NCBI GenBank assembly: GCA_032622095.1
Contig: CP136063.1
Location: 28,150,987-28,214,986, forward strand
Direction of reading: 5' to 3'
DNA length: 64,000 nt
Source: Siphonodentalium dalli
Taxonomy: Eukaryota > Mollusca > Scaphopoda > Gadilida > Siphonodentaliidae
Program-made: the position numbers and the translations under genes
Notes under the pieces: model-generated
The model's database searches: none
Told to the model about the DNA's origin: nothing
Seen by the model: the letters and a program-made list of their open reading frames with translations, nothing else
Shown: positions 7,813 to 40,264 of the stretch, piece after piece
Position numbering within the stretch: the stretch's first letter is position 1
How the letters are laid out: each line of letters opens with the position of its first letter

Positions 7813-8403
7813 AACTAGCTGGTGGACCCGACTTCGTCCGGGCTGTTTTGCCTCCGCTGTTTTCGGCCTCGAATTGATCATTTTGAAGGTCAAGGTCAGG
7901 TCGGTGTCACGATTTGATGCGTCCAAAATACTCCTCGGACAAAAGTACCCGACAGAAGTACCCGCTTTTACCCGATTTGACATTGAATTGACCATTTTGA
8001 AGGTCAAGGTCAGGTTTGGATCACGATTTGACCCGTCCAAAACATTCCTCAGATAAAAGTAAACCTAGGTATAAAATTTCGTCAAAATTCGCGATTTGAC
8101 CTTGAATTGACAATTTTGAAGGTCAAGTTCAGGTCCGGGTAACGATTTGACCCGTCCAAAAGACTCCCCGTCTAAAACTTCCTCTAGGTGTCAAATTTCA
8201 TCGAAATCCGTCCCGTTTTACCCAATTTGACCTTGAATTGACCTTTTTGAAGGTCAAGGTCCGGTGGGGGTCACAATTTGACCCGTCCAAAACACTCCGC
8301 GGACAAAATTACCCCTAGTTATGAAATTTCGTCAAAATCCGTTTTCCCGGTCATAGCTAACACGCACACACACAGACACACAGAAGTCACAAAATATATA
8401 GTA
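7813..8403 (+). repeat. Family A repeat unit 1
   Basis: Starts at the ACTAGCTGG junction with a short imperfect hairpin (cccgacttcgtccggg). It continues with 'gaccttgaattgacc' and 'gaaggtcaaggtcagg' modules of about 110-140 bp and ends in a CA-rich tail (cacacacacagacac) followed by 'aaaatatatagtagactag'. The architecture suggests a dispersed transposable repeat arranged head to tail. The class is not assigned. Confidence 0.6.
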
Positions 8404-9163
8404 GACTAGCTGGTGGACCCGACTTCGTCCGGGCTGTTTCCCCTTTTCGGCGAATTGCGCGATTTGACCTTGAATAGTCCATTTTGAAGGTCAAGGTCAG
8501 ATGGAGGTCACGATATGACCCGTCCAAAACACTCCCCAGACAAAAGTACCCGACAAAAGTGCCCGTCGAAATCCGTCTGATTTTACCCGATTGGATTTTG
8601 AATTGACCATTTTGAAGGTCAAGGTCACTTCGGGGTCACGATTTGAGCCATCCAAAACACTCCGTGGACAAAAGTAACCTTAGGTATCAAATTTCGTCGA
8701 AATCCCGTCAAAATTCGCGATTTGGCATTGAATTGACCATTTTGAATGTCAATGTCTGGTCGGGGTAACGATTTGACCCTTCCAAAAGACTCCCCGGACA
8801 AAAGTACCTCTAGTTACCAAACTTCGTCGAAATCCGTCCAGTTTTACCCGATTTGAAATTGACTTGACCTTTTTGAATATCAATGTCAGGTCGGGGTAAC
8901 GATTTGACCAATCCAAAAGACTCCCCGGACAAAAGTACCTCTGGTTACCAAATTTCGTCGAAATCCGTCCAGTTTTACCCAATTTGACCTTGATTTGACC
9001 TTTTTGAAGGTCAAGGTCAGGTCGGGATCACGATTTTACCCGTACAAAACCATCCCTGAAAAAAGTACCCCTAGGTATCGAATTTCGTCAAAATCCGTCA
9101 GGCAGTTTTCCCGGCCACAGCTAACACACACACACACAGACAGAAGTCCCAAAATATATAGTA
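8404..9163 (+). repeat. Family A repeat unit 2
   Basis: Same 5' hairpin and the same tail as unit 1, with more internal copies of the ~130 bp 'gaaggtcaaggtca' module. It directly abuts unit 1 through the shared 'tagactagctgg' junction. Small open frames on both strands are low-complexity products of the repeat. Confidence 0.6.
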
Positions 9164-10291
9164 GACTAGCTGGGTACCTGTCCTGACGGTGAGAGTCGTT
9201 GTGTTGTTTTGTTTTTACACCAACACCCCAAAAATGGTGGAAATTGGCCCAGCGGATACCGAGATACAGGTTCAAGGTCATTTGGAAGGTCAGGGTCACG
9301 CGCACGGGCAATCGGGTGTGACGAAATTGCTCAGCGCCTCAAACTACCCGTTTCCACCAAATTCGGTGAAAATCGGCTCAGCGGATTCCGAGATATGAGT
9401 CACTCAAGGTCACTCGAAGGTCAAGGTCACGGCGCACGGGCAAACGAATAGGTCCGTGTTACTCCTCGGTCAACCTACACCAACACCCCAAAAATGGTGG
9501 AAATCGGCCCAGCGGATACCGAGATACGTGTTCAAGGTCATTTGAAATGTCATGTTGAAAATGTTTGGCTACCCGAACTCTAACTACCTACGAAAGTTTA
9601 TCCCGATCGTCCCATCGGATTCCGAGATGCAGAGTCAAGGTCATTTGAAGGTCAAGGTCACGCCGCACGGGCATCCGGGTGGGATGAAATTTATTGGCAT
9701 CCCCATCTACACCAACACCCCAAAAATGGTGGAAATCGGCCCAGCGGATACCGAGATACGTGTTCAAGGTCATTTGAAAGGTCAATGTCATGTTGAAAAT
9801 GTTTGGCTACCCGAACTCTACCTACCTACGAAAGTTTATCCCGATCGTCCCATCGGATTCCGAGATGCAGAGTCAAGGTCATTTGAAGGTCAAGGTCACG
9901 CCGCACGGGCATCCGGGTGGGGTGAAATTTATTGGCACCCCCATCTACACCAACACCCGAACATGGTGGAAATCGGCCCCGCAGATACCAAGATACGGGT
10001 TCGAGGTCATTTGAAAGACCAAGGTCACGCAGTAAGGGCATCTGGGTGTGACGAAATTGGTCGTCGCCTCAACTTCCCCCACATACCAAATTTGGTCGAA
10101 ATCGGCCCATAAGGAGCCGAGATAGAGGTTGAAGGTCACCCGTTTGAAGGTCAAGGTCACGCTGCATGGACAAATGGATAGGCCTATGTTGGTCCTCGTG
10201 TGATACTACGTAGCCTTACCAAGTTTCGTCGAAATTGGTTGAGCCATTTTCGAGTCCATCGCGGCCACACAGACACACACACACAGACACA
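9164..10291 (+). repeat. Family A-like repeat unit 3 with ~237 bp internal tandem copies
   Basis: Starts 'gactagctgggtacctg'. 'ctacaccaacacccc' or a close form recurs near 9474, 9707 and 9944, giving two almost identical ~237 bp copies, each with several TCAAGGTCA motifs. The unit ends in the CA tail (cacacacacacagacac) at about 10270-10290, where E2 is inserted. Its missing distal part (CA run, 'aaatatata', 'ttagactag') reappears at 23515-23551 beyond E2. Confidence 0.62.
10286..10291. repeat. Left target-site duplication of E2 (GACACA)
   Basis: Six bases before the AGTAGTATAC terminus of E2. The bases after the right terminus are GACCCA (23509-23514), a 5/6 match. Polintons make 6-bp target duplications, so length and position fit. 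The surrounding CA-rich sequence makes a chance match possible. Confidence 0.6.
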
Positions 10292-10620
10292 AGTAGTATA
10301 CGGGAGGGTCACAGTGATATATAGTTCATTGAGATTGTGGAGGAGGAAAATAAAATCGATATTGTTTTAATCCGTATTTATAATTAAATAAGTAGTTATA
10401 TAGATACGTAGATATATAGATACGTAGATATGTAGATATCGGGTATAGCTTACGCAATTACCTATAATAATATGGGAAGTCTACCTTCGACTAGTCCACT
10501 AATTTTATTGATCCCCCACTTTTCGAATGAACTGATCTAAACTCCAATTATTGATTCCTCGGCTGTGTGTGCTTTAGTATTAAGCCATTGATGGTGGTGT
10601 TAATGAGATCAACGATGCTT
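10292..10620 (+). repeat. Terminal region of the E2 left arm
   Basis: Outermost block, mirrored at about 23180-23508. It holds AT-rich 'tagatacgtagatat' repeats (about 10398-10437) and 'cctataataatatggg'. A diverged second copy of this terminal block lies inside the arm at about 11673-11910, showing that the terminus was once duplicated in tandem. Confidence 0.7.
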
Positions 10621-10855
10621 TTACCTTTCAATCAATCTAATTATTCCGAAAAAAATTGTTAGCTGCTTTAAAGCAAATTATATGTACTTGAGTCGGGTGG
10701 GTTTTAACACTTTCGCTGTTGAGATTTCGTTTGCAATAGAATCAGTAAATTAACCACTTACCTTTGATATAACGCATACTCCTATTTTTTCGGAATTTCG
10801 ATACAACTGATGATTAAATGTTCCCCTCAATATTCTAGGTGTCCACACACAAAAT

Positions 10856-11296
10856 TTAAATAAAACATGTGAGAACCTGGAATATCAAGGGGGGCCATGA
10901 GGCCCAAACAATATTACTCCGCCACTTGTTTAGTCCAAGCTGTAGCTTAGCTTCTCTTCTGGGATGTGGTTCGTATCCTCTGAACACCCCCGAACCTCTC
11001 CACTCGTGAATGCACCCATCGTCGCAAACTTCCGGTAGGTGGTGTTTCCACAATGGCGCTGTATCTTCCAAGTTCTCCAGCAAGGCCATTCTAGCTTTTT
11101 GTAGAACAACCAATTGACTCCTAAGTTTTAGGATGATATCGACGCGACGAAGTTCCTCTTATATTCAAACGCTGCCGTGCATTTAGCGCCATTCTGCTGG
11201 CTACACGCATAAATCCGTTGTCCTGCACTATCGTTTGAAGTATCTCCTCCAACAAGGCCCTCTGAAGAGCGTAATACTCTGGGGTCGCTGGATTTC
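10856..11296 (-). pseudogene. Unidentified coding-like region, left arm only in full
   Basis: An 85-residue open frame (10856-11113, minus strand) contains 'ALLENLEDTAPLWKHHLPE'. The minus-strand sequence upstream, to about 11296, reads in a neighbouring frame as arginine-rich sequence with 'ALNARQRLNIRGTSSRR'. The two pieces look like one degraded gene pointing towards the element tip, opposite to the other genes of this arm. I do not recognise the family. In the right arm only about 22801-22925 remains, because a ~380 bp segment equivalent to 11001-11382 is missing there. Confidence 0.35.
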
Positions 11297-11299
11297 AGT

Positions 11300-11652
11300 T
11301 AATGAGCCGGGCTTTATGCACCCCTTCACTGCTATGGCTTCAGATCGGAAGGCTTACTTCGTATCCAGTTTTAATTCACAACGCGACTCTTATGATTAAC
11401 CCACCGCCGTCTGCTATGTATTGGTGTTTTAGTGTATGGCAACCTGGGTATGAAACATTGAAGAAAGTAGTCCGATTCCACGAGGGAATGCCTGGCATAA
11501 GTGCGTTTGATGCTAGCACTCCGTCCCTGGTTACACTGTTTGATTTTATGTTAGAATGTGATAAGAACAGTGTAACCAATCTTTTCACAAAATACACGAA
11601 TACATCACAGAAATATGAGTGTTATACTTATTCTTCAGAATATCTTCGATAA
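11300..11652 (+). pseudogene. Polinton packaging ATPase, N-terminal/central fragment (left arm)
   Basis: The FtsK/HerA-type ATPase of Polintons is thought to package DNA into capsids. Near 11316 one frame reads HPFTAMAS, the segment that normally precedes the Walker A loop. The loop itself is degraded and the frame shifts. The 116-residue open frame then shows INPPPSAMYWCF, FHEGMPGIS and the Walker B-like stretch VTLFDFMLE, followed by NLFTKY. It ends before the second half of the domain. A second, internally deleted copy of the gene follows at 11979. Orientation is towards the palindrome centre. The assignment rests on motif order as remembered for the family. Confidence 0.7.
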
Positions 11653-11672
11653 TGTTAAATCAGTATATATAT

Positions 11673-11910
11673 ATATATATTAAAACACTAGTTAAATAAG
11701 TATTTATAGATATATATAGATACGTAGATATATAAATACCGGAATAGGTGATGCGATTACTTATAATTACCTTCGACGGGTCCACTAATTTTAGTGACCT
11801 ACGACATCTGAAAATGAACCGATCTAAAGCGATAATAATGAAGTATTGATTTTTCCCTCGGTTTATTGTAATTGGCATTAGCGAATCGATTGGTGTCTGT
11901 GTGTTAGCGA
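11673..11910 (+). repeat. Internal copy of the E2 terminal block (left arm)
   Basis: Resembles 10370-10600: 'taaataagtatttatagat', 'tagatacgtagatat', 'ttataattaccttcgacggg', 'gtccactaattttagtgac' and 'gaaccgatctaaa' occur in the same order. With the two ATPase fragments it shows a tandem duplication of tip plus 5' ATPase sequence. The mirrored copy in the right arm (22262-22500) shows that the duplication is older than the palindrome. Confidence 0.65.
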
Positions 11911-11978
11911 AATGATTCATGCATAAGTCAATGCTTCTATCACGCTCATTGATATATTATGGTGACAGTTGACCGTGG

Positions 11979-12262
11979 AATCAGTTAATGAGCCGGGCTT
12001 TAAACACCCCTTTACTGCTGTAAATGGTGTGACTAATCTTTTCATAAAATACAGTCATACTAGAAACATAAATATTATACTTATTCTTCTGAATATCTTC
12101 GCACGCGATATCAATCCTTTTTAAGAATTCCAACTGCAATTTCGGGTCTCGCCAGACAAATGTTCAATACCGAATCTAAACACCTAGATGCTGTATCTCC
12201 ACCGTTCGTATACTAGCTCGTTGATTTTAAACGGGAAACAACGGAAAATGTGCGCCTGTGTT
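11979..12262 (+). pseudogene. Polinton packaging ATPase, internally deleted copy (left arm)
   Basis: Starts with the same 'agttaatgagccgggcttta' as the first copy and reads KHPFTAV. It then jumps directly to NGVTNLFIKYSHTRN, so the whole Walker A-Walker B core is deleted. The following IILILLNIFARD matches the sensor region typical of the family. It is frameshifted before the C-terminus, where CSIPNLNT and similar remain. The right-arm equivalent (21872-22197) has the same deletion but keeps a longer open frame. Confidence 0.7.
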
Positions 12263-12533
12263 TGTGCTTAAATAGCTATTTGTGAGTGACGAAATTTCAA
12301 CCATGTCAAAACTTCTGAAGAGGAACATGGGTATTTAACTTGGTTAGTGCATCTCCCACCTCTTAAAGCTGTATAAACTAGCTTTGCACAACGCCGACAA
12401 TGATTTAATAAATTTTGTATCGCTGACTGATGCTCATATATACTAGATGGAACGTACCGATCTCGACCGGACATAAGAATAAACTTGTTAAATATAAGAA
12501 TCAAATCTGTAAATCTGGAATCTGTAAAGCAAG

Positions 12534-12653
12534 GTCTTGTATAGTCTAAAGAAGAGAAAACGCCTGTTGCGATCAGATGGATTTCTTGTAACTTTATTGA
12601 AAAGTATAGTCCCAATTTTGAGCAGTCTTCTGGTGGTCTCATTCAATAAATAG
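12534..12653 (+). pseudogene. Small basic/hydrophobic Polinton protein (left arm)
   Basis: A 39-codon open stretch ends at a TAG at 12651. It consists of a basic run (LKKRKRLLRSDGF) and then a hydrophobic segment (LVTLLKSIVPILSSLL). This basic-GFL-hydrophobic pattern recurs in a small unassigned protein next to other Polinton genes, as I recall it. It may be a virion or membrane-active component, but the function is unknown. Upstream sequence is frameshifted, so only the C-terminal part is readable. Confidence 0.5.
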
Positions 12654-12676
12654 AACACACACGAAAATTATTTTAA

Positions 12677-14023
12677 TTGACCCTAAGTTCTGGAAGAACG
12701 GATTTAATATTGGAGGAAACTATCGTTATTCGTCCACGGCATCAGTTTCAGATTGACTTGTTTGATGTTAAGTCGCCGGAAGAGGAGAACGATAATTTTA
12801 AATATATATATATAAATATTCATCTGTATCGATGCGTTCACAAAAATAGTTTGGGCTGTCCCGATGTTAACCAAATTCGGTTCAGACTAAATTAAGGCTT
12901 TCCATATACTTAAATATACGGGCGGCGTCGGAGGTGGATATGCTGTTGAAATATTCACCTCCACCAAAAACCGCCATAAACAGGAGGAATAGTAGGATAT
13001 AGACAGACTTTGTTCTTATGCTAATCAGAAATATTGCATAAACAGTATGCTGTTACCAATTTGATCCCTTTGTTATGTAAACAAAAGCAAAAATAAAAAG
13101 AAAACTTTACGTTCCATGGTTTTTGTTTAGCTCCGGATATGGTAAACATAAACAGCGTTATTTGTTACTGTCTTCTTTATATGGAAAAAATAGAGAGCGT
13201 TTATATAATTTGTGTGTGATTCACCAATAGAATTGCGCTGTGTTATGTAAACAGAAGCACAACTTCTGTAACACAAGCAGTCTCTTCTTTATTTACACCA
13301 TCGCACGTTTTGGCGACAATATACTATTTACGAGCTGATTATGTTTGGCGTATGAGCGGAACTGTATATATATATTTTGATGTTCCTTCTGTTGATGACG
13401 ATTTGAACAAATATTAATATTTCTGCAACGAACGCCCCCGTGCCTTTAATAGAAATATGATATTCCGTGATCTGTTCTTGTAGACTGAGGGGATCGAAAA
13501 ATAAGAATATTCAGTTCTTTACTTCCCAAAATGATTATGTCAAATTTGTGATCATTGAACGATCATCGGACTCTAATGAGTCGTATGTGGAGATATTTTA
13601 CAAAGAATAACACTTTTCGTCATATCGAGATGCCTCAATGTCTACTCGACAGTTACAGTTCTTCTTATTATAGAAGTATCGGTATGACCCCAAGAAATGT
13701 CACACATGATAAAGTCGGGGATGTGTGGTGGAATCTATATGGTAAACACACGACTCCACGATCGCTCGTGGCTGAAAGAAAACTACCCTTTTCTGTCGGT
13801 GATTTAGTGAGAATCTCACACATGAAAAGAGTATTTAAAAAACAGAAAGGATACGAAGCTAACTGGTTCTCGCGAATTGTTCAGAACTACTGAGGTTCTG
13901 AGGACCACACCAACGACTTTCTGCTTGGGTGACTATTTGGGCCAAGATCTAGATGGTACTTTCTACCTGGAAGATATTCAGAAAGTTAGTGAACCAAAGG
14001 TTTCAAGATTGAACATTTTTTAA
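12677..14023 (+). pseudogene. Polinton integrase (rve family), broken by a MITE (left arm)
   Basis: DDE/rve integrases cut and join DNA at insertion. The first part (12677-12896) has QIDLFDVK with the first catalytic aspartate. A frameshift interrupts the FTK-VWAVPM strand region, which is intact in the right arm. A 540-bp TTAA-flanked MITE (12910-13449) follows. After it, the coding sequence resumes with the second-aspartate region (degenerate VDRGD) and TSQNDYVKFVIIER, which carries the catalytic glutamate. Next come SRMWRYFTK, SYYRSIGMTP and the C-terminal FSVGDLVRIS and KRVFKK. A last frameshift near 13880 separates the chromodomain-like tail (DLDGTFYLEDIQKV), which stops at 14023. It is not functional. 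Confidence 0.85.
12910..13449 (+). mobile_element. TTAA-flanked MITE, copy 1 (left arm)
   Basis: A 540-bp non-coding element bounded by TTAA on both sides. Its terminal inverted repeats are of the form TTAA-ATAYACGGGCGG / TTAAAGGCACGGGSG. More degenerate inverted similarity follows ('gaaatatt', 'aaacag.aggaa'). TTAA targets are the hallmark of piggyBac-type elements. No transposase is encoded, so it would be non-autonomous. It splits the integrase gene between its first and second catalytic aspartates. Confidence 0.72.
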
Positions 14024-14065
14024 AGAGAAAATATAAATTCTTTGTTAAATTTCTTGGATATCCAT

Positions 14066-14602
14066 TTAAAGATACGGGCGACCTTGGTGGTGGGTATGCT
14101 GTTAAAATATGCACTTCCGTCACAAACCGCCATAAACAGAAAGAATAGTAAAATATAGAAAAACTTTTTGTTCTGTATCCCAATCAGAAATATGGCGTAA
14201 CGGTATGTTATTGTCAGTTTTGTTTGCTATGTTATGTAAACAAAAGCAAAAAAGTTACGTTTCCTGGCTTTTGTTTAGATCCGGATAGGGTAAACATAAA
14301 GAGCGTTATGTGTTATTGTTTTCCTGATATGGAAATAATAAAGAGCGTTTATATCATTTGTGTGTGATTAACCAATATAATTGCGCTGTGTTATGTAAAC
14401 AGAAGAACAACCTCTGTAACACGAGCAGGCTCTAGCCTACGTACACCATCGTACGTCTTGACGACAATATACTATTTACACGCTGATTATGTTTGGCATA
14501 TGAACAAAACTTTATATATATATATATTTTATTATTCCTTCTGTTGATGGTGATTTGAACAAACATGAATATTTATGCAACGAACACCGCCCGTGCCTTT
14601 AT
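14066..14602 (+). mobile_element. TTAA-flanked MITE, copy 2 (left arm)
   Basis: Same family and orientation as copy 1, co-linear across its length: 'ccgccataaacag', 'aaagagcgtt', 'tgtgtgattaaccaat' and 'ctgattatgtttggc'. It starts TTAAAGATACGGGCG and ends CCCGTGCCTTTAT, where the right TTAA is mutated. It lies between integrase and the penton-like gene. A 65-residue minus-strand open frame here is non-coding. Confidence 0.7.
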
Positions 14603-14783
14603 GTTCAACGCCTGACTTCATACAAGGGAGTTAATTGATGGAACAGAATAGTGACAATGCGAGTCGTAGTTCGTGGTGTTGGATCGACTTCAGTAAGGAG
14701 CAAGTTACTTACATTATTGTTTTCTACTTTATAACAGCGGCTGCTGTGTTAATTACATCACTCAACAACGGAGATGAGCAACT

Positions 14784-15501
14784 GTGGACAGCCCGTCAGT
14801 TGAATCATCCAGCAAGAAATTTTTGTTTTGGATGTACATTACTCTCCAGAGCAATTCTTCTAGGGTGTATTATCTGAACAATACGATAGCCAAATTCACG
14901 ACTAAACTGCCCACTTCGACCAACCTAGAAGGAAAATGGGAGGTATGGCTCGCTGAGATGCAATTTCCATATTCGTGGTTTAACATTTCTGGTGATGAAA
15001 TTTTGGTTCAAGATAATCAAAATGCTACGTGAGCTGGAATTACCACGTGACTGGCGGACAAACACTAATGTCGCATTCACCTACAACGAAGCTACACAAC
15101 TTTTAGATATGTCTGTCAGGGAAAGAACGATGGTTAAAGTCAGTTAATTGTTCGCGCATACCACGGACCTAGACGACCGCGGAATGAAGACAAGATATCA
15201 CGAATCTGGACGACCCGTCAATATCACTAGGAATAAATTATGTTCTGTGTAATTGTATTCAGACGTGGTGATATAACAAATCATCGGAGACACATACGTT
15301 CCGCTGCTTCAAATGCATGGTCGGGTTCACCAAAAACTACGGGGAGCAATGCAGTCGAATTTTCAACCGAATTTATTACCTACATATCAATAAGAAGTTC
15401 ATATATTCCAATGGGATCATTAAAATCACCTCAACGTGTCGTAAATCCCATTCTTAGCCGGTATATCAGTGGTGCCGTTAAATTTTCGCTCACTGTTGTG
15501 A
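14784..15501 (+). pseudogene. Polinton minor capsid (penton-like) protein (left arm)
   Basis: Polinton minor capsid proteins form the vertices of the virion. The N-terminal part has WMYITLQSNSS, FTTKLPTSTNLEGKWEVWL and FPYSWFNIS, matching the family start in which a wrapped strand leads into 'W-V-L-E-I-P--W-N'. A frameshift near 15010 leads to LRELELPRDW. A stop splits KVS from LFAHTT, and further breaks precede YSDVV and IGDTYVPLLQ. The terminal IPFLAGISVV-FRSLL ends at TGA 15499-15501. The gene order penton-small protein-MCP is as expected. The right-arm copy (18654-19386) carries some of the same breaks, so the gene was partly decayed before duplication. Confidence 0.75.
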
Positions 15502-15840
15502 CGGTAGACTGTGTGATGTTTACTATAGGAAACATGTTGTCAGGTTTTCTTTTTTCAGAGGAGCTAGAACTCAGAGGGGATACGGTAGTATTTTCGTAGT
15601 ATTCAAAAGGCTTTAATACCATTGATGAAAACAGCTGGCAAACATCTGCTTTCTAATGGGATAGGCTTGGCCAGTGATTTGATTGAAGGCAGCAACTTCA
15701 AGGATTCGTTAGAAAAAAGATGGGAACAAGCCAGCAGGAGAGTATTGAATGATCACACTGGGGTCAACCCTACACGACGCAAGAAGATCAGAATGAAAGT
15801 TGTTTCCTATAATATTAAGGACATATTTTGGTTGACATAA
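15502..15840 (+). pseudogene. Small Polinton protein upstream of MCP (left arm)
   Basis: A frameshifted 5' part shows QRGYGSIF. The clear open frame 15622-15840 begins MKTAGKHLLSNGIGLASD and continues through a basic C-terminus (PTRRKKIRMK). A similar protein, a glycine-rich start followed by 'AGK-LL--G---A-D---G-NFKDS', precedes the major capsid gene in other Polintons as I remember them. Its role may be minor virion protein but is not established. Its stop overlaps the MCP start as TAATG. Confidence 0.6.
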
Positions 15841-16850
15841 TGTCTCTCATAAAAACCAAAGACGACAGAGAGCGTTAGCTGTGAAATGAATCTCTTTACC
15901 CTACCGCCGAACCAGACCTTGGTTCTTGAATCATCTTGGATAGAATGCAGACCTGTAACTCACAGTAGTCCTATAGAATCGAAGCTGACTTCTTTGATCT
16001 ATACAATTATCATATTCATGTTCAGTTTAATATAGTGAGAAATGACGGGGAAGATCTTGCGATTTGGACTAATGTCACCCCTGTTAACAATTTTCTCAAT
16101 AGTATGTTTTCGCAAGTAGACATATCAATAAAAGATCAATTGAGGCCCAATCCACGAACACTTACCCGTCTAGCACCTCTCTACAGTCCTTATTCAGTTT
16201 CGCAGCTGAGTAACATTTGTTGGATCAAGGACACTACCACTGAAATTGAGACTACTAGGAAATCAAAATGCCGGGTACAAGCTCAGGAAAGAAATGTCGG
16301 CGAACAGTAAGTACTTGGACATGATTGGAAAATTAAACCTCAGCGTTTTTAATCAAAACTAATATTTGACAAATGGTGTAAATCTTCTTTTCGAAATTAA
16401 TTCGATCTAAAGATTCGTTCTGTTTGTTGTCATCAGAGGCCGACGGTACCTACAAGGTGAACGTTAAAGAAGTTACTTTATTTGTCCATTCAACCACTGT
16501 CAATTTAACTATACTAAATACTATGAAAAGCGGAAATCTCATGTATCCTATACAGCGAGTGGTTTACAATACTTTATCGGTTCCTGACGACACTTATTTC
16601 AAGGTCGAGTCCCGCGTCATGTAGTCGTCTGATGCGTGGACAACGAATCATGCAAAGGAGCAGTTGACAAAACCTTTTCAATCTGAAGAATTATAACATT
16701 CGTTCCCTAACTCGATCCCTGGATGGAATTTATATACACAGCAAGCACATAAAGCCTGATTTTTTAAATGAAGCTATGGCTACATTGCCTAATAGATTTT
16801 GTTATTTTGAGAAACAAAAACAAACAAACAAACTGAAAGCAAGAAAATAA
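15840..16850 (+). pseudogene. Polinton major capsid protein, truncated (left arm)
   Basis: This is the double jelly-roll capsid protein. ATG at 15840 overlaps the upstream stop (TAATG). Recognisable blocks are FTLPPNQTLVLESSW, then VRNDGEDLAIW, TPVNNFLNSMFSQVDIS, YSPYSVSQLSNICWIKD, KVNVKEVTLFVHS and GNLMYPIQRVVYNT. They are followed by IHSKHIKPDF and NEAMATLP. Several frameshifts separate the blocks. The C-terminal part of the second jelly roll is missing: the reading ends within a few hundred bases of the palindrome centre, as if the centre had formed inside or just after this gene. Confidence 0.82.
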
Positions 16851-16940
16851 TATCTTGGGAGTATACCTAGATAATTTTCTTACATCACGTTTTTCTGATA
16901 TTTGAAAAATTTATTTTTTATATAAATATAAATTCTTAAT

Positions 16941-17340
16941 ATGAGAATATTTTTCCTAATGTTTTCTAAGAACTATTTAAATATTGGTTCTTAGATTTGC
17001 TAACAGTAAGATTTCTTAAATCCTAGAAAAATACATTCTATACATATGAGAATATTTTTCCTAATGTTTTCTAAGAACTATTTAAATATTGGTTCTTAGA
17101 TTTGCTAACAGTAAGATTTCTTAAATCCTAGAAATATACATTCTAGGATTTAAGAAATCTTACTGTTAGCAAATATAAGAACCAATATTTAAATAGTTCT
17201 TAGAAAACATTAGGAAAAATATTCTCATCTTAAGAATTTATATTTATATAAAAAAAAAAAATTCAAATATCAGAAAAACGTGATGTAAGAAAATTATCCA
17301 GGTATACTCCCAAGATAATATTTTCTTGCTTTAAGTTTGT
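16941..17340. repeat. Centre of the E2 palindrome, with one-sided 104-bp duplication
   Basis: AAATCCTAGAA (17123-17133) and TTCTAGGATTT (17141-17151) pair across a 7-nt spacer, ATATACA. On the left, a ~104 bp unit beginning 'atgagaatatttttccta' occurs twice in tandem (16941 and 17045). On the right it occurs once, inverted. The centre is AT-rich and no protein reads across it. Confidence 0.85.
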
Positions 17341-18308
17341 TTGTTTGTTTGTTTTTGTTTCTCAAAATAACAAAATATTTTTGGCAATGTAGCCATAGCT
17401 TCATTTTTAAAATCAGACTTTATGTGCTTGCTGGGTATATAAACTCCAAACAGAGATCGAGTTAGGGAACGAATGTTATAATTCTTCAGATTGAAAAGGT
17501 CTTGTCAACTGCTCCTTTGCATGATTCGTTGGTTAGCGACAAACTGCCGTCAGGAACTGATAAGTATTGTAAACCACTCGCTGTATAGGATACATGAGAT
17601 TTCCGCTTTTCATAGTATTTAGTATCGTTAAATTGACAGTGGTCGAATGGACAAATAGAGTAAATTCTTTAACGTTCACCTTGTAGGTACCGTCGGCCTC
17701 TGATGACAACAAACAGAACGAATCTTTAGATCGAATTAATTTCAAAAGAAGATTTACACCATTTGTCAAATATCAGTTTTGATTAAAAAGCTGAGGTTTA
17801 ATTTTCCAATCATGTCCAAGTCCTTACTGTTCGCCGACATGTCTTTCCTGAGCTTGTATCCGGCATTTTGATATCCTAGTAGTCTCAATTTCAGTGGTAG
17901 TGTCCTTGATCCAACAAATGTTACCCAGCTGCGAATCTTTTACCGGTTGGGCGAAACTGATTAAGGTCTGTAGAGAGGTGCTACACGGGTAAGTGTTCGT
18001 GGATTGGGCCTCAATTTTATTGATACGTCTACTTGAGAAAACATACTATTGAGAAAATTGTTAACAGGGGTGACATTAGTCCAAATCGCAAGATCTTCCC
18101 CGTCATTTCTCACTATATTAAACTGAACATGAATATGATAATTGTATAGATCAAAGAAGTCAGCTTCGATTCTATAGGACTACTGTGAGTTACAGGTCTG
18201 CATTCTATCCAAGATGATTCAAGAACCAAGGTCTGGTTCGGCGGTAGGGTAAAGAGATTCATTTCACAGCTAACGCTCTCTGTCGTCTTTGGTTTTTATG
18301 AGAGACAT
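17330..18308 (-). pseudogene. Polinton major capsid protein, truncated (right arm)
   Basis: Mirror copy of the left-arm gene, read on the minus strand from the ATG at 18308. The same blocks are present in the same frames or with small shifts. The open frame at 17533-17769 carries LLLKLIRSKDSF, VNVKEFTLFVHS and GNLMYPIQRVVYNT. It has the same missing C-terminus near the centre. Base differences from the left arm are scattered substitutions and small indels. Confidence 0.82.
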
Positions 18309-18653
18309 TATGTCAACCAAAATATGTCCTTAATATTATAGGAAACAACTTTCATTCTGATCTTCTTGCGTCGTGTAGGGTTGATCCCAGTGTGATCATT
18401 CAATACTCTCCTGCTGGCTTGTTCCCATCTTTTCTCTAACGAATCCTTGAAGTTGCTGCCTTCAATCAAATCACTGGCCAAGCCTATCCCATTAGAAAGC
18501 AGATGTTTGCCAGCTGTTTTCATCAATGGTATTAAAGCCTTTTGAATACTACGAAAATACTACCGTATCCCCTCTGAGTTCTAGCTTCTCTGAAAAAAGA
18601 AAATGGAAAACCTGCCAACTTGTTTCCTATAGTAAACATCACACAGTCTACCG
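18308..18653 (-). pseudogene. Small Polinton protein upstream of MCP (right arm)
   Basis: Minus-strand open frame 18308-18526 is almost identical to the left copy (MKTAGKHLLSNGIGLASD start, basic PTRRKKIRMK end). One clear difference is HTGI in place of HTGV. It overlaps the MCP start as TAATG. The 5' part is frameshifted as in the left arm. Confidence 0.6.
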
Positions 18654-19386
18654 TCACAACAGTGAGCGAAAATGTAACGGCACCACTGATTTACCGGCTA
18701 AGAATGGGATTTACGACACGTTGATGTCATTTTAATGATCCCAATGGAATATATGAACTTCTTATTGATATGTAGGTAATAAATTCGGTTGAAAATTCGA
18801 CTGCATTGCTCCCCCGTAGTTTTTGGTGAACGCGACCATACGTTTGAAGCAGCGGAACGTATGTGTCTCCGATGATTTGTTATATCACCACGTCTGAATA
18901 CAATTACACAGAAAATAATTTATTCCTAGTGATATTGACGTGTCGACCAGATTCGTGATATCTTGTCTTCATTCCGCGGTCGTCTAGGCCCGTGGTATGC
19001 GCGAACAATTCACTGACTTTAACCATCGTTCTTTCCCTGACAGACATATCTAAAAGTTGTGTAGCTTCGTTGTAGGTGAATGCGACATAAGTATTTGTCC
19101 GCCAGTCACGTGGTAATTCCAGCTCACGTAGCATTTTGATTATCTTGAACCAAAAGTTCATCACCAGAAATGTTAAACCACGAATATGGAAATTGCATCT
19201 CAGCGAGCCATACCTCCAATTTTCCTTCTAGGTTGGTCGAAGTGGGCAGTTTAGTCGTGAATTTGGCTATTGTATTGTTCAGATAATACACCCTAGAAGA
19301 ATTGCTCTGGCGAGTAATATACATCCAAAACAAAAAATTCTTGCTGGATGATTCGTGATCAATATACCGACTGACGGGCTGTCCAC
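18654..19386 (-). pseudogene. Polinton minor capsid (penton-like) protein (right arm)
   Basis: Mirror of 14784-15501. The first block reads WMYITRQSNSS, then TNLEGKLEVWL and FPYSWFNIS. The second frame (18904-19164) stays open across the stop present on the left, reading KVSELFAHTT. The presumptive ATG is changed to GTG and about 14 extra bases lie near 19350-19366. Comparing the arms shows which breaks are shared, and hence older, and which are private. Confidence 0.73.
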
Positions 19387-19567
19387 AGTTGCTGATCTCC
19401 GTTGTTACGTGATATAATTAACACAGCAGCCCTTGTTATAAAGTAGAAAACAATAATTTAAGTAACTTGCTCCTTACTGAAGTCGATCCAACACCACGAA
19501 CTACGACTCGCATTGTCACTATTCTGTTCCATCAATTAACTCGCTTGTATGTAGTCAGGCGTTGAAC

Positions 19568-20107
19568 CTAAAGGCACGGGCGGTGTTCGTTGCAGAAATA
19601 TTCATGTTTGTTCAAATCACTATCAACAGAAGGAATAATAAAATATATATATATATATATAAAGTTTTATTCATATGCCAAACATAGTCAGCATGTAAAT
19701 AGTATATTGTCGTCAAGACGTACGATGATGTACGTAGGCTAGAGCCTGCTCGTGTTACAGAGGTTGTGCTTCTGTTTACATAACACAGCGCAATTATATT
19801 GGTTAATCACACACAAATGATATAAACGCTCTTTATTATTTCCATATCAGGAAAACAATAACACATAAGGCTCTTTATGTTTACACTATCCGGATCTAAA
19901 CAAAGGCCAGGAAACGTAACTTTTTTGCTTTTGTTTACATAACAAAGCAAACAAAACTGACAATAACATACTGTTTATACCATATTTCTGATTGGTATAA
20001 AGAACAAAGTTTTTCTATATTTGACTATTCTTTCTGTTTATGGCGGTTTTTGACGAAAGTGAATATTTTAACAGCATACCCACCACCAAGGCCGCCCGTA
20101 TCTTTAA
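19568..20107 (-). mobile_element. TTAA-flanked MITE, copy 2 (right arm)
   Basis: Mirror of 14066-14602. The outer TTAA is preserved at 20104-20107 and the other is mutated (CTAA). It contains a (TA)n run near 19644-19660. Presence at the same place in both arms means that it inserted before the arms were duplicated. Confidence 0.7.
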
Positions 20108-20149
20108 ATGGATATCCAAGAAATTTAACAAAGAATTTATATTTTCTCT

Positions 20150-21477
20150 TTAAAAAATGTTCAATCTTGAAACCTTTGGTTCACTAACATTCTGAATATC
20201 TTCCAGGTAAAAAGTACCATCTAGATCTTGGCCCAAATAGTCACCCAAGCGGAAGGTCGTTGGTGCAGTCCTCAGAACCTCTGTAATTCTGAACAATTCA
20301 CGAGAACCAGTATCCTTTCTGTTTTTTAAATACTCTTTTCATGTGTGAGATTCTCACTAAATCACCGACAGAAAAGGGTAGTTTTCTTTCAGCCGCGAGC
20401 GATCGTGGAGTCGTGTGTTTACCATATAGATTCCACCACACATCCCCGACTTTATCATGTGTGACATTTCTTGGGGTCATACCGATACTTCTATAATAAG
20501 AAGAACTGTAACTGTCGAGTAGACATTGAGGCATCTCGATATGACGAAAAGTGTTATTCTTTGTAAAATATCTCCACATACGACTCATTAGAGTCCGATG
20601 ATCGTTCAATGATCACAAATTTGACATAATCATTTTGGGAAGTAAAGAACTGAATATTCTTATTTTTTAGATCCCCTCGGTCTACAAGAACAGATCCCGG
20701 AATATCATATTTCTATTAAAGGCATGGGGGCGTTCGTTGCAGAAATATTAAACAAAAATTAAATCGTCATCAACAGAAGGAACATCAAAATATATATATA
20801 CAGTTTCGCTCATACGCCAAACATAATCAGCGCGTAAATAGTATATTGTCGCCCAGACGTACCATGGTGTACTTAAAGAAGAGATTGCTCGTGTTACAGA
20901 AGTTGGGCTTCTGTTTACATAACACCTCAATTATATTGGTGAATCACACACAAATGATATAAACGCTCTTTATTATTTCCATATAAAGAAGACAGTAACA
21001 AATAACGCTCTTTATGTTTACCATATCCAGAGCTAAACAAAAGCCGTGGAACGTAAAATTTTATTTTTATTTTTGCTTTTGTTTACACAACAAAGGGATC
21101 AAATTGACAACATCATACTGTTTATGCAATATTTCTGATTAGCATAAGAACAAATCTGTCTATATCCTACTATTCCTTCTGTTTTTGGTGGAGGTGAATA
21201 TTTCAACAGCATATCCACCTCCGACGCCGCCTGTATATTTAAGTATATGGAAAGCCTTGATCTAGTCTGAACCATATTTGGTTAACATCGGGACAGCCCA
21301 AACTATTTTTGTGAACGCATCGATACCAATGAATATATATATATATATATATTTAAAATTATCATTCTCCTCTTCCGGCGACTTAACATCAAACAAGTCG
21401 ATCTGAAACTGATGCCATGGACGAATAACGATAGTTTCCTCCAATATTAAATCCGTTCTTCCAGAACTTAGGGTCAA
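20150..21477 (-). pseudogene. Polinton integrase (rve family), broken by a MITE (right arm)
   Basis: Mirror of the left-arm integrase. Here the first part is better preserved: QIDLFDVK, then GIDAFTKIVWAVPML, before a stop and the MITE at 20716-21242. The second part carries the VDRGD-like segment, TSQNDYVKFVIIER, SRMWRYFTK, SYYRSIGMTP, FSVGDLVRIS and the tail with DLDGTFYLEDIQKV. Nine bases are missing after KKQKGY compared with the left arm. It is not functional. Confidence 0.85.
20716..21242 (-). mobile_element. TTAA-flanked MITE, copy 1 (right arm)
   Basis: Mirror of 12910-13449, bounded by TTAA at 20716-20719 and 21239-21242. It sits at the identical point of the integrase gene. There are several small differences from the left-arm copy, including the length of an internal A-rich run. 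Confidence 0.72.
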
Positions 21478-21500
21478 TTAAAATCATTTTCGTGTGTGTT

Positions 21501-21622
21501 CTATTTATTGATTGAGACCACCAGAAGACTGCTCAAAATTGGGACTATACTTTTCAATAGAGTTCCTAGAAATCCATCTGATCGCAACAGGCGTTTTCTC
21601 TTCTTTAGACTATACGAGACCT
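21501..21622 (-). pseudogene. Small basic/hydrophobic Polinton protein (right arm)
   Basis: Reads SLKKRKRLLRSDGFLG on the minus strand, then TLLKSIVPILSSLL and a stop at 21501-21503. It is the mirror of the left-arm 12534-12653 gene, with few changes. Confidence 0.5.
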
Positions 21623-21871
21623 CGCTTTGCGTAAATTACAGATTTGATTCTTATATTTAACAAGTTTATTCTTATGTGCGGTCGAGATCGGTACGTTCCA
21701 TCTAGTATATATGAGCAGCAGTCGGCGATACAAAATCTATTAAATCATTGTCGGCGTGTGCAAAGCTAGTTTATACAGTTTTACGAGGTGGGAGACGCCC
21801 TAACCAAGTTAAATTCCCATGTTCCTCTTCAGAAGTTTTGACATGGTTGAAATTTCATCGCTCACAAATGG

Positions 21872-22197
21872 CTATTTAAGCACATTATCCGTTGTTTCCC
21901 GTTTAAAATCAACGAGCGAGTATCCGAACAGTGGAGATACAGCATCTAGGTGTTTAGATTCGGTATTGAACATTTGTCTGGCGAGACCCGAAATTGAAGT
22001 TTGAACTCTAGGATTCTTAAAAAGGATAAGATATGATAATTTCAAACTTATAGTTCTCTGATTGTTATCGCGTGCGAAGATATTCTGAAGAATAAGTATA
22101 ATATTTATGTTTCTAGTATGACTGTATTTTATGAAAAGATTAGTCACACCATTTACAGCAGTAAAGGGGTGTTTAAACCCGGCTCATTAACTGATTC
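21872..22197 (-). pseudogene. Polinton packaging ATPase, internally deleted copy (right arm)
   Basis: Carries the same fusion of HPFTAV to NGVTNLFIKYSHTRN as the left arm. The 91-residue open frame continues IILILQNIFARD, then ISLKLSYLILFKNPR and ISGLARQMF to GYSLVDFKRET. This is the order of the C-terminal half of Polinton ATPases, and it is more complete than in the left arm. The Walker motifs are absent, so no ATPase activity is expected. Confidence 0.72.
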
Positions 22198-22261
22198 CAC
22201 GGTCAACTGTCACCATAATATATCAATGAGCGCGATAGAAGCATTGACTTATGCATGAATC

Positions 22262-22500
22262 ATTTCGCTAACACACAGACACCAATCGATTCGCTAATGC
22301 CTATTACAATAAACCGAGGGAAAAATAAATACTTCGTTATTATCGCTTTAGATCGGTTCATTTTCAGATGTCGTAGGTCACTAAAATTAGTGGACCCATC
22401 GAAGGTAATTATAAGTAATCGCATCACATATTCCGGTATTTATATATCTACGTATCTATATATATATCTATAAATACTTATTTAACTAATATTTTAATAT
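22262..22500 (-). repeat. Internal copy of the E2 terminal block (right arm)
   Basis: Mirror of 11673-11910. It shows the same blocks, including the 'tatctacgtatcta' repeats near 22445 and 'ccactaaaattagtgg'-like sequence. Confidence 0.63.
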
Positions 22501-22522
22501 ATATATATATACAAATTAAACA

Positions 22523-22797
22523 TTATCGACTTTTCTCGAAGATATTCTGAAGAATAAGTATAACACTCATATTTCTTTGATGACTGTATTTTGTGAAAAG
22601 ATTGTTCACACTGTTATCACATTCTAACATCAAATCAACCAGTATAACCAGGGACGGGGTGCTCGCATCAAACGCACTTATGCCAGGCATTCCCTTGTGG
22701 AATCGGACTACTTTCTTCAATGTTTCATGCCCAGGTTGTCATGCACTAAAACACTAATACATAGCAGACGGCGGTGGGTTAATCATAAGAGTCGCTT
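22523..22797 (-). pseudogene. Polinton packaging ATPase, N-terminal/central fragment (right arm)
   Basis: The open frame 22523-22720 shows FHKGMPGIS, VILVDLMLE (a better Walker B than on the left), NLFTKYSHQRN and VILILQNIF. The region before it, including the Walker A surroundings, is lost in the ~380 bp deletion whose junction lies near 22795-22801. It is truncated at the same point as the left copy. Confidence 0.72.
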
Positions 22798-23508
22798 CGA
22801 GAGGTTCGGGGGTGTTTAGAGGATACGAACCACATCCCAGAAGAGAAGCTAAGCTACAGCTTGGACTAAACAAGTGGCAGAGTAATATTGTTTGGGCCTC
22901 AGGCCCCCCTTGATATTCCAGGTTCTCACATGTTTTATTTTAATTTTGTGTGTGGACACCTAGAATATTGAGGGGGACATTTATTCGTCAATTGTATCGA
23001 AATTCCGAAAAAATAGGAGTATGCGTTATATCGAAGGTAAGTGGTTAATTTACTGATTCTATTGCAAACGAAATCTCAACAGCGAAAGTGTTAAAACCCA
23101 CCCGACTCAAGTACATATAATTTGCTTTAAAACAGCTAACAAATTTTTCGGAATAATTAGATTGATTGAAAGCTAAAAGCCTCGTTGATCTCATTAACAC
23201 CACCATCAATGGCTTAATACTAAAGCACACACAGCCGAGGAATCAATAATTGGAGTTTGGTTCAGTTCATTCGAAAAGTGGGGGATCAATAAAATTAGTG
23301 GACTAGTCGAAGGTAAACTACCCATATTATTATAGGTAATTGCGTAAGCTATATCCGATATCTACATATCTACGTATCTATATATCTACGGATCTATATA
23401 ACTACTTAATTAATTATATAAACGGATTAAAACAATATCGATTTTATTTTCCTCCTCATCCACAATCTCAATCACATATACATCCCTGTGACCCTCCCGT
23501 ATACTACT

Positions 23509-23551
23509 GACCCACACACACAAACTGTCCTCAAATATATATTAGACTAGC
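23509..23551. repeat. Right target duplication of E2 and remaining tail of family A unit 3
   Basis: GACCCA (23509-23514) follows the ACTACT end of E2. It continues as a CA run, 'caaactgtcctc', 'aaatatata' and 'ttagactag', exactly the distal part expected for the A unit that breaks off at 10291. Confidence 0.6.
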
Positions 23552-24500
23552 AGGTTAGCCCGCCACTCGCGTGGTTCGTCTCATTGCTTTGTTCGAAAAA
23601 GCAATTGCAACAGCTTCCGAGACACGTATGCTGCAACTAGGTCTAAAATTTCGTCGAAATCCGCCAGTTTTACTCGATTTGACCTTGAATTGATCAGTAG
23701 GCTTCAATATTTGACACGGCAATTGACTGCCGTGGGCCACGGCTGCCGTAACAGTTGATAACATGTTCACATTCGGCGGATCGGGCACTGCGGTCAGTCA
23801 AAAAACATAACACACACGCTATAACTCCGGTATCACTAACGTACGCGGCATTGGAAGGGTCAGGTTAACTTCCGCCTGGACCCACGTGGCGTGACGTAAT
23901 TCACAACCACGTGTATTTATCTCGAAAGTCTTAAAACTGCGCGACACACACAATGACCCGATAATGGGCATGCATTCCCTAGAATTTCCCAGAAGATATT
24001 CACAGGGAGGTCAAGTGACCAATTTTGAAATTTGCTGGTCGCATTCGTCTGTAGGTCTGAGGAATTATCGGCTAGATATTGTTACCAACATGACATATTT
24101 TAATTAATCCCGCCGTGCACCCCAACACCAACGCAGCGTAATTGTGGTCGAGATGACGAAATATGAGTGCGACAGAGAATATTGTTTGATCGAAAGTATT
24201 TGAATGAATTCGTCACAAGACTCGCCTTGATGCTGGCTAATATATATTTGTCCCTGCTAGGTGTTGAGAATGTGAATTAAAATTGCCATGGGAATGCCGT
24301 GGGGGTCTAATCCGATGAAAATGTCCCCGTTCCTAGGAAGCGAGTTCCAGATAACGTAAACAAACGCTGTATGCAAAAGCCGAAGGGAATGAAGAGCGTT
24401 AACTGGTTAACGAACCCAAATATGGAAGATCTTTATCAACGACACTGCGGATACGAACGCTCTTTAACTATCAACGCTAATATGATCGTACGTGACACGT
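23547..24500 (+). repeat. Family B repeat unit 1 (3'-truncated)
   Basis: Starts 'gactagcaggttagcccg' with a tiny hairpin CCACTCGCGTGG. It runs parallel to 48113-49080 through 'ttcgaaaaagcaattgcaac', 'cagtaggcttcaatatt', 'atgttcacattcggcgg', 'acccacgtggcgtgacg' and 'gaacgctctttaac'. The 3' module seen in other B copies (aaaacgccgcgacgac) is lacking. No coding sequence. Confidence 0.62.
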
Positions 24501-24563
24501 AACGGAGCAACCACCAAGTTGATCATTAAGTTCAATATTAGAATAATTATCGGATGTTCCGTA

Positions 24564-25094
24564 CACAGTACTACATGTGCTACACCACTCGCAGAAATGT
24601 TTGTGTCATCACACTAAAATACCATGTTAGAACTTGGATTGATATATTCGTAATGGTATATAGTCACCAATAGCCGGGTTACTATCGTAGTACCTGACAT
24701 TTCCCATCTAGTGAACTATTCAACCCAGCATTAAAATCATGGTTATGATCAGTCCAAACATATGACTAAAGTTCGAACATAAGATAATAATAGTTGAGAA
24801 CCTGGTGTGAAATCAACTGTGGTGGGGTCTCAAGTAAATCTACCCCTGCACGTCAGAACAAAATTATGTAATAAGTAGCTTGAGGATGGAAGTGAACCAT
24901 CATCCCACAGCGAAATCAACCAGGCCTGCTGGGTTTGAATAGTTCACTTGATGGGCTATGTCAGGTACTACGTTATTAACGCGGCTATTGGTGACTATAT
25001 ACGATTACAAATATATCAATCCAAGTTCTAACATGGTATTTTAGTGTGATGACACAGACATTTCTCCGAGTGGTGTAGCACATGTAGTACCCTG
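24564..25094. mobile_element. Tc1/mariner-like MITE with ~170 bp inverted repeats
   Basis: Left arm about 24564-24735 and right arm about 24938-25094 are reverse complements (CACAGTACTACATGTGC against the complement of GCACATGTAGTACCCTG). They are separated by a ~200 bp unpaired centre. TA dinucleotides flank both ends (24562-24563 and 25095-25096), as expected for Tc1/mariner superfamily insertion, although the right side runs into a (TA)n tract. It encodes no transposase. Confidence 0.7.
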
Positions 25095-25790
25095 TATATA
25101 TATATATATATATATATATCACAGCAGATGTTTTCTTAGAATTAATGAATGGAAATGGAATGCATTTTAATATTTGAGTAGGACATGGATTACCTTAGCT
25201 GAAGGCAATCAATGCAATACATGTAAGCTATGTAGAAACAGAAATTATTGAATGGAGTGTAGCGAATAGGATGCGTCACTTTAATATTTGAGTCGGACAT
25301 AGATTACCTTAGCTGAAGGCAATCAATGCAATACATGTAAGCTATGTAGATACAGAAATTATTGAATGAAGTGTAATGAATATGAAGCGCCATTTTAATG
25401 AAATATCGATTGGGTAGAAGAGAAATGTCACTTTAATAGTTAACGATGATATACTTGTAGAATTATAGATTATCCCCATTTGAGACGATCAATGCAATGA
25501 GCAGTGTAGAAATGGAAAAATGTTGCCAGAATGAATTGATGTGTGTAAACATAAAGTCTCACTTTAATGAAATGTTGAGATGATGGAATCAACGATGAAT
25601 TTGCAATTTCCGTTAATGAAGAAACCAATGATGACATTGGTTTACATGTATATACAGCTGAAAATGTGAATTGACTGAAATGTAATTATGAAAGTGTCAA
25701 TGACACTGTAGCTCAACATGGAAAGGGAATAATTTCATGTGTTACAGTCAATGGAGTGATTAGGAATGTGGAAAGTTGAAAGGCCTAGTT
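25095..25790. repeat. (TA)n and degenerate 114-bp tandem repeat
   Basis: The TA microsatellite ends near 25119. Two close copies of a ~114 bp unit follow ('taatatttgagt.ggacat', at 25170 and 25284). More diverged relatives near 25425 and 25560 share 'tcactttaat', 'gatcaatgcaatg' and 'tgtagaaa'. No genes. Confidence 0.6.
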
Positions 25791-27460: not shown

Positions 27461-28138
27461 TGATGTGTCGCTTTTAATGAATTGGCAATGACATGATGAC
27501 AGCGGTATGGAAACGGTCACTGCGGTGGAGTTACGATACATGCCGTTCGGTTATGATACCACGGTCTACAGGTTGAAGAAAATTATGATATATGTTCATG
27601 GGGATCTTTCTATAGATCGGATAAGTGTTGGCGCTGGGTATTGCTGTTAAAATAGTCACATCCATTAAAACCGCCATAAACAGCATTAATATTATAAACA
27701 AACCTTGTTATACCAATCATAAATACATGCATAATGTAAAAACACCGAGTAGACCCCCACTGCATGTACACGTATATGGACTTTTGTTAGAAATGCCACC
27801 GTTATTTACAACATACCGCATTACCAGTATAGCCAATAAGCTAAATCTTAGATTTTGTTGTTGAATGCCTGAATGGGTCATCATGAATCACTCTCGACCT
27901 AATCAATTGCCACGGTGTATGAAAGTGTTTTGCTTATCGCTCACTATTTACTTCCTGTATATATACAAACGCTCTGCTTACACATCTGGAGTGTTTTGTG
28001 GAAAATATCGCATTCATAATAGTATCATTATTCTATACTATTAGTATATCCTTGAGGAAATTGTCACAATTTGGTAACTGCTATTTCTAAATTATTACTT
28101 ATCACATGTAATAGTACATATTTACATGTACATTTACA
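27461..28138. other. Non-coding interval
   Basis: No gene recognised. Positions about 27640-27690 ('ctgttaaaatagtcacatcc', 'ccgccataaacag') resemble the first part of the TTAA MITE carried by E2, so this may be a diverged fragment of that family. Confidence 0.4.
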
Positions 28139-39918: not shown

Positions 39919-40263
39919 GAATACTTAGAAATTGAGAATGATTTTGATCTTGACCTCATGGACATTGATTTGGACGTCGTCGATGGATCAGTTATTCTCG
40001 AAGAAGCTAGTTTCCCCAAAAAACGATACAGTGTGGATAAAATGAAAAATAACTTTGGTCGTCAGCTTTATCTTTATGTCAAGGTAGCGATCTTTTTTTT
40101 CTAAACGGGAGAGCATGCGATGACCGAGAAATCGGTGCGCTAACTTGTCGCGACACTTCAGTTGTCGACTATGCGATCTGCTCTAAAGATGTTCTCAAAC
40201 TGGTGACCAATTTTATGCTTGGCGAATTTGATAGTGCCATTCGTATATTAAAACCAGCATAAC
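39919..40263 (+). pseudogene. LINE endonuclease domain, C-terminal part
   Basis: The frame from the element's first base continues an open stretch with RYSVDKMKNNFGRQL. It then shifts to FLNGRACDDREIGALTC and VVDYAICSKDVLKLV, the order seen at the end of exonuclease-endonuclease-phosphatase domains of CR1/Jockey-like LINEs (NGR..D...G..TC...SVVDY). The catalytic N-terminal part is absent through 5' truncation. It ends with a stop at 40260, just before the first ATG of the next open frame. Confidence 0.65.
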
Positions 40264-40264
40264 C

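Follow-up and report, generated by a model that had tools for sequence, protein, structure and literature searches.

In a 64,000-nucleotide stretch of the genome of the scaphopod Siphonodentalium dalli (contig CP136063.1, positions 28,150,987 to 28,214,986 of the forward strand), we found a Polinton-like element whose whole length is a single palindrome. This stretch is called the window below, and all coordinates are those of the window. The element is best read as a fossil derivative of the Polinton/Maverick group of transposons, and its genes were very probably dead before the palindrome formed. The evidence for this order of events is damage that both arms carry in common, together with nested insertions that are mirrored from one arm to the other.

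The tip-to-tip palindrome is real. Self-comparison of the window shows an inverted repeat of 13,217 bp that spans 10292-23508, which confirms the giant palindrome with a 7-nt spacer claimed in a first-pass annotation of this DNA (the annotation had itself proposed the dot plot). The sequence at the centre is CCTAGAA-ATATACA-TTCTAGG, and the central 200 nt (17046-17245) fold into a single hairpin (z -28.3) whose stability was equalled in 0/200 shuffles. The largest indels between the arms are a 379-bp stretch that is missing on the right and a 105-bp duplication present on the left only, the first unit of which holds a near copy of the loop. By eye, the two left 105-bp units seem to resemble each other more than either resembles the unit of the right arm, although the numbers are too small to carry weight. 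Splitting the alignment of the arms at 17145, five bases beyond the loop, or at the exact centre left the 256 substitutions, the 35 indels and the bounds obtained from the alignment unchanged.

The two arms end in tips that share 23 identical bp, starting AGTAGTATACGGGAGGGTCACAG / AGTAGTATAC, and carry the Polinton/Maverick end motif (AGT)2//(ACT)2, with AGTAGT at 10292 and ACTACT ending at 23508. Once joined, the sequences flanking the element align straight across the junction with sister copies of the flanking repeat unit that carry no interruption, both at 9000-9215 (score 101 without the extra 6 bp, 95 with them) and at 8240-8430 (85 without, 80 with), while a third stretch, 8600-8720, matched a short part of the left flank only (score 33 either way). 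Because the joined flanks align in this manner, the palindrome occupies one insertion site. The earlier claim that a single set of termini and a GACACA/GACCCA duplication bound the whole thus holds for the tips and for the single site; the putative 6-bp duplication itself matches at 5/6 positions, lies in a CA-rich stretch and is weak taken alone.

From tip to centre, each arm contains pieces, read from stop to stop, that resemble ATPase (twice), integrase, penton, PW and major capsid, all pointing towards the centre. The integrase C-terminal piece 13552-13893 matches the protein P0001, its sole database relative, at 45/102 aligned positions (44%), and P0001 in turn has just a sub-cut-off match to Chromo. 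Among 18 distinct pieces, none had a Pfam match above the cut-off, the four sub-cut-off matches being to unrelated families, and there was no Pfam match to an integrase among the pieces scanned; 10 pieces likewise gave nothing above the cut-off in PHROGs. With no profile match above the cut-off, the ATPase, integrase core, penton and capsid labels rest on gene order and on motifs, judged by eye, that we take to be those of these proteins. Of the ATPase, integrase, penton-like and capsid genes that the first-pass annotation had placed in each arm, the integrase thus has a relative for its C-terminal part, and the others are identified by eye and by order. The same annotation had proposed the loss of polymerase B, which agrees with our reading: no polymerase was recognised by eye among the stop-to-stop pieces of the arms, and the window as a whole was not scanned with a polymerase profile.

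Other searches with these pieces returned little. Protein searches, limited to proteins similar in length to the piece and hence unable to show full-length relatives, gave no relatives for the major capsid piece 15969-16310 or for the ATPase, and one for the integrase C-terminal piece. No relative was confirmed in the viral_contigs collection for five pieces (major capsid, integrase core, integrase C-terminal part, ATPase and penton) or in the genome_contigs collection for the integrase C-terminal piece. A sequence search of PDB with the major capsid piece, the integrase core and P0001 yielded nothing with E < 0.36, and the integrase stretch 12677-14020 had no match to phages at the DNA level. 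The structure of one capsid piece, predicted without an alignment, had a predicted local distance difference test (pLDDT) score of 35.7 and was unusable.

Much of the damage is common to the two arms, a point on which the first-pass annotation was silent, as it was on the nested insertions described below. Stop codons fall in the same columns of both arms in 335 cases (of 409 in the left arm and 381 in the right; gene strand, three frames, whole arm), a count that carries no weight alone because most stops are common anyway at 96% identity. A generous bound on open frames was obtained by allowing either state at each substitution and a free change of frame at each private indel. Even so, the longest frame possibly open in both arms is 499 bp (gene strand, whole arm), and it crosses the 379-bp gap of the right arm; inside of 12263, the limit is 460 bp. 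By region, the limits are 460 bp for the integrase C part, 390 bp for the penton (cut at an edge, 14640, that we chose) and 391 bp for the capsid, so that no frame above 460 bp is free of both-arm stops in these three regions, however the private indels are read. As a control, a 1098-bp open frame from the same window (40235-41335, 366 aa) was aged as two copies at the observed rates and kept a median of 1063.5 bp, with a range of 577-1092 bp over 300 runs.

A second sign, different in kind, comes from two repeats resembling miniature inverted-repeat transposable elements (MITEs), each of about 530 bp (TTAA ends counted in the coordinates), which lie in the left arm and are mirrored in the right. 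TTAA flanks the first at 12910-12913 and 13446-13449; the second has TTAA to its left and TTAT to its right. In both arms, the first insertion parts the integrase core-like piece from the C-terminal part, and the claim that the element keeps its integrase is not supported. Compared arm to arm, the first insertion differs at 37/519 columns (7.1%) and the second at 21/527 (4.0%); at 7.1% divergence, the presence of the first in both arms does not stem from a recent conversion tract. Outside the element, at about 27606-27735, there is a third and partial relative. Insertions of this sort presumably accumulate while an element sits in a chromosome, and finding the same ones in both arms suggests that the element was resident before the palindrome formed. 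Together, the both-arm frame limit and the mirrored insertions point to an element that was already dead and insertion-laden at that time.

The arms have since diverged. Substitutions separate them at 256/6258 columns (4.1%), comprising 118 transitions and 138 transversions, and 29/35 indels have lengths not divisible by three, which is what the absence of selection on proteins would give. The divergence is patchy, with 1 to 24 differences per 250 columns (index of dispersion 3.31), and regional values are 2.3% for the integrase C part, 2.9% for the penton and 4.2% for the capsid. The longest identical run, of 348 columns, lies in the capsid region and was matched in 0/5000 shuffles; the second-longest, of 272 columns, lies in the integrase (13497-13768). 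This patchiness is most simply put down to gene conversion between the arms, which probably caused it.

As to the origin of the palindrome, we give about an even chance to fold-back repair of the dead Polinton in its chromosomal place. A Polinton would have inserted in a repeat and, while resident there, would have had its genes destroyed by stops and frameshifts and by two or more MITE-like insertions before turning palindromic. A strand broken near the middle of the element would then have folded on the short inverted match TAGAA / 7-nt loop / TTCTA, the end TTCTA pairing with TAGAA and priming the copying of its own other half. This copying would have run to the left terminal repeat and tip, and the homologous right terminal repeat would have been used to rejoin the right flank, so that the tip and the target duplication were kept and the half expected to hold the polymerase was lost. 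Later, the arms would have diverged and swapped patches by gene conversion. In this scheme, we infer that the strand folded back, that it was rejoined within the right terminal repeat and that the setting was the chromosome. The available text of PMC3907307 documents fold-back inverted duplications in which the inverted microhomology spans 2-8 bp, and the human cases described there resemble the present one in that a short inverted match primes the duplication at the turn. They follow the loss of a chromosome end, however, whereas the palindrome here is bounded by the transposon's own tips (PMC3907307).

Several points weigh against this account, either in its timing or in its mechanism. The open-frame bound on the opposite strand is 740 bp, above that of the gene strand, which therefore shows no excess of openness. 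Introns would weaken the open-frame argument, in which the genes are presumed to have once been single open frames. Arm-to-arm gene conversion could make lesions of one arm look shared, and the 348- and 272-column identical runs fall in the regions of the capsid and of the integrase, respectively. The pieces in the frames flanking the integrase match gave no alignment to P0001, so that the frameshifts in the integrase depend on our own reading of the frames. As for the mechanism, the exact symmetry of the tips follows more directly from replication and then insertion than from repair, and in the 21 sequenced human fold-back junctions reported in the consulted part of PMC3907307 the spacers are at least 766 bp (766-70,466 bp), against 7 nt here.

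A possible but less probable origin is that another Polinton supplied proteins which worked on the tips of the dead, MITE-laden element, that the replicating strand folded back mid-element and copied itself to the tip, and that the resulting unit reinserted. Such a course would fit tips that are complete and identical over 23 bp, one putative 6-bp duplication at one insertion site, and a 7-nt loop, which suits a strand switching onto itself. A palindrome of half a genome with both tips, as found here, is one mark of a snap-back defective genome. Palindromic genomes are known from older adenovirus work. Snap-back genomes of adeno-associated virus (AAV), partial genomes in double-stranded snap-back form, are products of the supposed snap-back kind in another linear DNA virus, as far as the available text of PMC8235507 describes them; they occur as particles of a parvovirus that is replicating, and effects on the virus are reported, whereas ours lies in a chromosome as a fossil and seems to have been dead before the palindrome formed. 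This helper-driven course would also require the excision and trans replication of a dead, insertion-laden element. The exact 21-base tip was present in 0 stretches of viral_contigs and genome_contigs, which has little weight as the host is unlikely to be in either collection. Divergence at the tips gives no clear choice between repair and later insertion. In-place repair would be expected to leave older divergence in the outermost right tip; the outer 50 columns hold 5 substitutions, and 8.7% of all 50-column windows have at least as many, while the outer 150 columns hold 9, reached by 25.5% of windows.

The first-pass annotation had instead proposed an active Polinton as the source: while its genes still worked, it would have made a snap-back product that inserted and decayed later. 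Tips, site and centre agree with this proposal as they do with a helper-driven snap-back, and its fold-back style of centre and tip-to-tip palindrome stand; its source in an active, replicating Polinton is unsupported, and we consider it very unlikely. The both-arm frame limit speaks against it, as does the presence of both MITE-like insertions in each arm. Conversion alone would have had to spread many lesions and two insertions across regions that are now 2.3-7.1% apart. The related view of a defective-interfering product of a parent with working genes does not fit either, since no long frame is free of shared stops and the insertions are shared, with conversion and introns as caveats.

It is improbable, too, that two Polinton copies of the same family inserted in opposite orientation and were joined by a deletion. 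Copies of one dead family would indeed carry common old damage, but in each copy the deletion would have had to end at the mirror-image point to within 7 nt, the outer ends show a single insertion site, and the centre is fully symmetrical. Reads that turn back at a missed adapter make palindromes, yet an assembly or sequencing artefact of this kind is most unlikely, because the arms differ by 4.1% in substitutions and by 35 indels, the largest of 379 bp, because the palindrome ends on each side precisely at matching tips, and because the two flanks are unlike one another and, once joined, align as sister units of the repeat do.

The closest known structure is the maize locus Mu killer (Muk). 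In the available text of PMC3440606, Muk is described as an internally deleted and partly duplicated MuDR in which both terminal repeats derive from one end; its two partial copies of the gene terminate in an inverted duplication, and the parent is silenced. The element of S. dalli is likewise an inverted duplication of half a transposon with the same terminal repeat at both ends. It differs in being a Polinton derivative rather than a MuDR derivative, and in scale, since each half of Muk consists of the terminal repeat and 1.298 kb of gene, whereas the arms here are 6.4-6.8 kb. The very centre of Muk is unsequenced according to the same text, whereas our sequence runs through the loop. Finally, Muk silences its parent, while the arms here are 4.1% apart and their genes look dead beforehand.

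Several features tie the element to Polintons and Mavericks. In the part of PMC8097293 that deals with vertebrate Mavericks, (AGT)2//(ACT)2 is the commonest end motif, and intact copies measure 12,723-24,620 bp with terminal repeats of 46-1447 bp. The tips of our element carry this motif, its putative 6-bp duplication (5/6) would be of the same kind, and its 13,217 bp lie within that range. Its integrase, minor capsid, PW and major capsid pieces, most of them labelled by eye, follow one another in that order on one strand and point centreward, which is also how the second gene module is arranged in vertebrate Mavericks (PMC8097293). Unlike a Polinton or Maverick, it has no recognised polymerase half and its genes are broken, although brokenness itself is ordinary, 96% of vertebrate Maverick loci being called eroded in the same source. 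Its inverted repeats are the entire arms of 6.4-6.8 kb, far from the terminal repeats of Mavericks. The ATPase-like pieces also lie on the integrase side, whereas the ATPase of Mavericks belongs to the polymerase module, as described there (PMC8097293).

No paper on a palindromic Polinton was found among the matches listed in the open-access literature. In the literature consulted, in part, the protein-primed replication of Polintons is deduced from genes and tip motifs, not from the products of its errors. A tip-to-tip palindrome is the expected trace of snap-back errors, and fossils of this kind are thus worth counting across genomes. For each of them we propose a simple test: where both arms have damage in common, the palindrome is younger than the death of the element, and it then tells of DNA repair or of help in trans more than of an active virus. 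If a dead element was indeed copied by a helper, Polintons would replicate dead relatives in trans through protein-primed strand displacement. Because the same shape is a silencing locus in maize, half-element palindromes elsewhere are candidate natural hairpin-RNA loci, and the present palindrome, if transcribed, could possibly be a Mu killer-like source of small RNAs against Polintons.

Table 1. Features of the palindromic element and of its insertion site, in window coordinates.
Feature	Position	Strand	Remarks
Putative target site duplication, left copy GACACA	10286..10291	.	5/6 match to right copy; CA-rich context
Left tip, AGTAGT motif	10292..10314	+	23 bp identical to right tip; (AGT)2 as in the available text of PMC8097293
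Left arm, tip to loop	10292..17133	+	6842 bp; 256/6258 columns differ from right arm, 35 indels
Packaging-ATPase-like fragments, twice in tandem, broken	11187..12272	+	by eye; no Pfam match
Integrase core-like fragment	12677..12893	+	by eye; no Pfam match for left or right copy
MITE-like insertion 1	12910..13449	.	imperfect inverted ends; TTAA on both sides; splits integrase
Integrase C-terminal part, three frames	13453..14020	+	frame breaks look common to both arms
MITE-like insertion 2	14066..14602	.	82% identical to insertion 1; imperfect inverted ends
Penton (minor capsid)-like fragment	14778..15250	+	by eye; frame change near 15030 common to both arms
PW-like fragment, between penton and capsid	15240..15837	+	by eye and order
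Major-capsid-like fragments, three frames	15853..16850	+	by eye
105-bp tandem duplication	16924..17145	+	centre, left side only; absent from right side
Loop ATATACA	17134..17140	.	7 nt; flanks CCTAGAA / TTCTAGG
Right arm, loop to tip	17141..23508	-	6368 bp; without 379 bp of left arm (from about 11000 in the left arm)
MITE-like insertion 2, right-arm copy	19569..20107	.	self-comparison
MITE-like insertion 1, right-arm copy	20717..21242	.	self-comparison
Right tip, ACTACT end motif	23486..23508	-	identical to left tip over 23 bp
Putative target site duplication, right copy GACCCA	23509..23514	.	5/6 match to left copy
Uninterrupted sister unit of flanking repeat (paralogous empty site)	9000..9215	+	joined-flank alignment

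Within each arm, tip-side sequence and an ATPase-like piece are tandemly duplicated (10352-12101 and its mirror). In the left arm, the tandem pairs are 10381-10541/11689-11828 (72%), 11295-11333/11981-12019 (92%) and 11570-11648/12027-12101 (80%). As parts of this duplication are also present in the right arm, it probably predates the palindrome.

The insertion site is adjoined by tandem arrays of repeats of about 119, 131 and 238 bp (7867-10018). Just to the right of the insertion starts a dispersed repeat, 23533-24477, with a second copy at 48099-49079 that is 83% identical over about 1 kb.

Scans of the window for tRNA genes and Rfam families found none. Elsewhere in the window, an open reading frame of 131 aa (31407-31802) matches DUF3504 (PF12012, E 2.7e-7, above the cut-off). 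The 366-aa open frame at 40235-41335, which served as our control, resembles by eye the reverse transcriptase of a long interspersed nuclear element (LINE) and has no Pfam match at E 0.01. Lastly, an inverted repeat of about 170 bp, with 92% identity, is found at 24562-25096.

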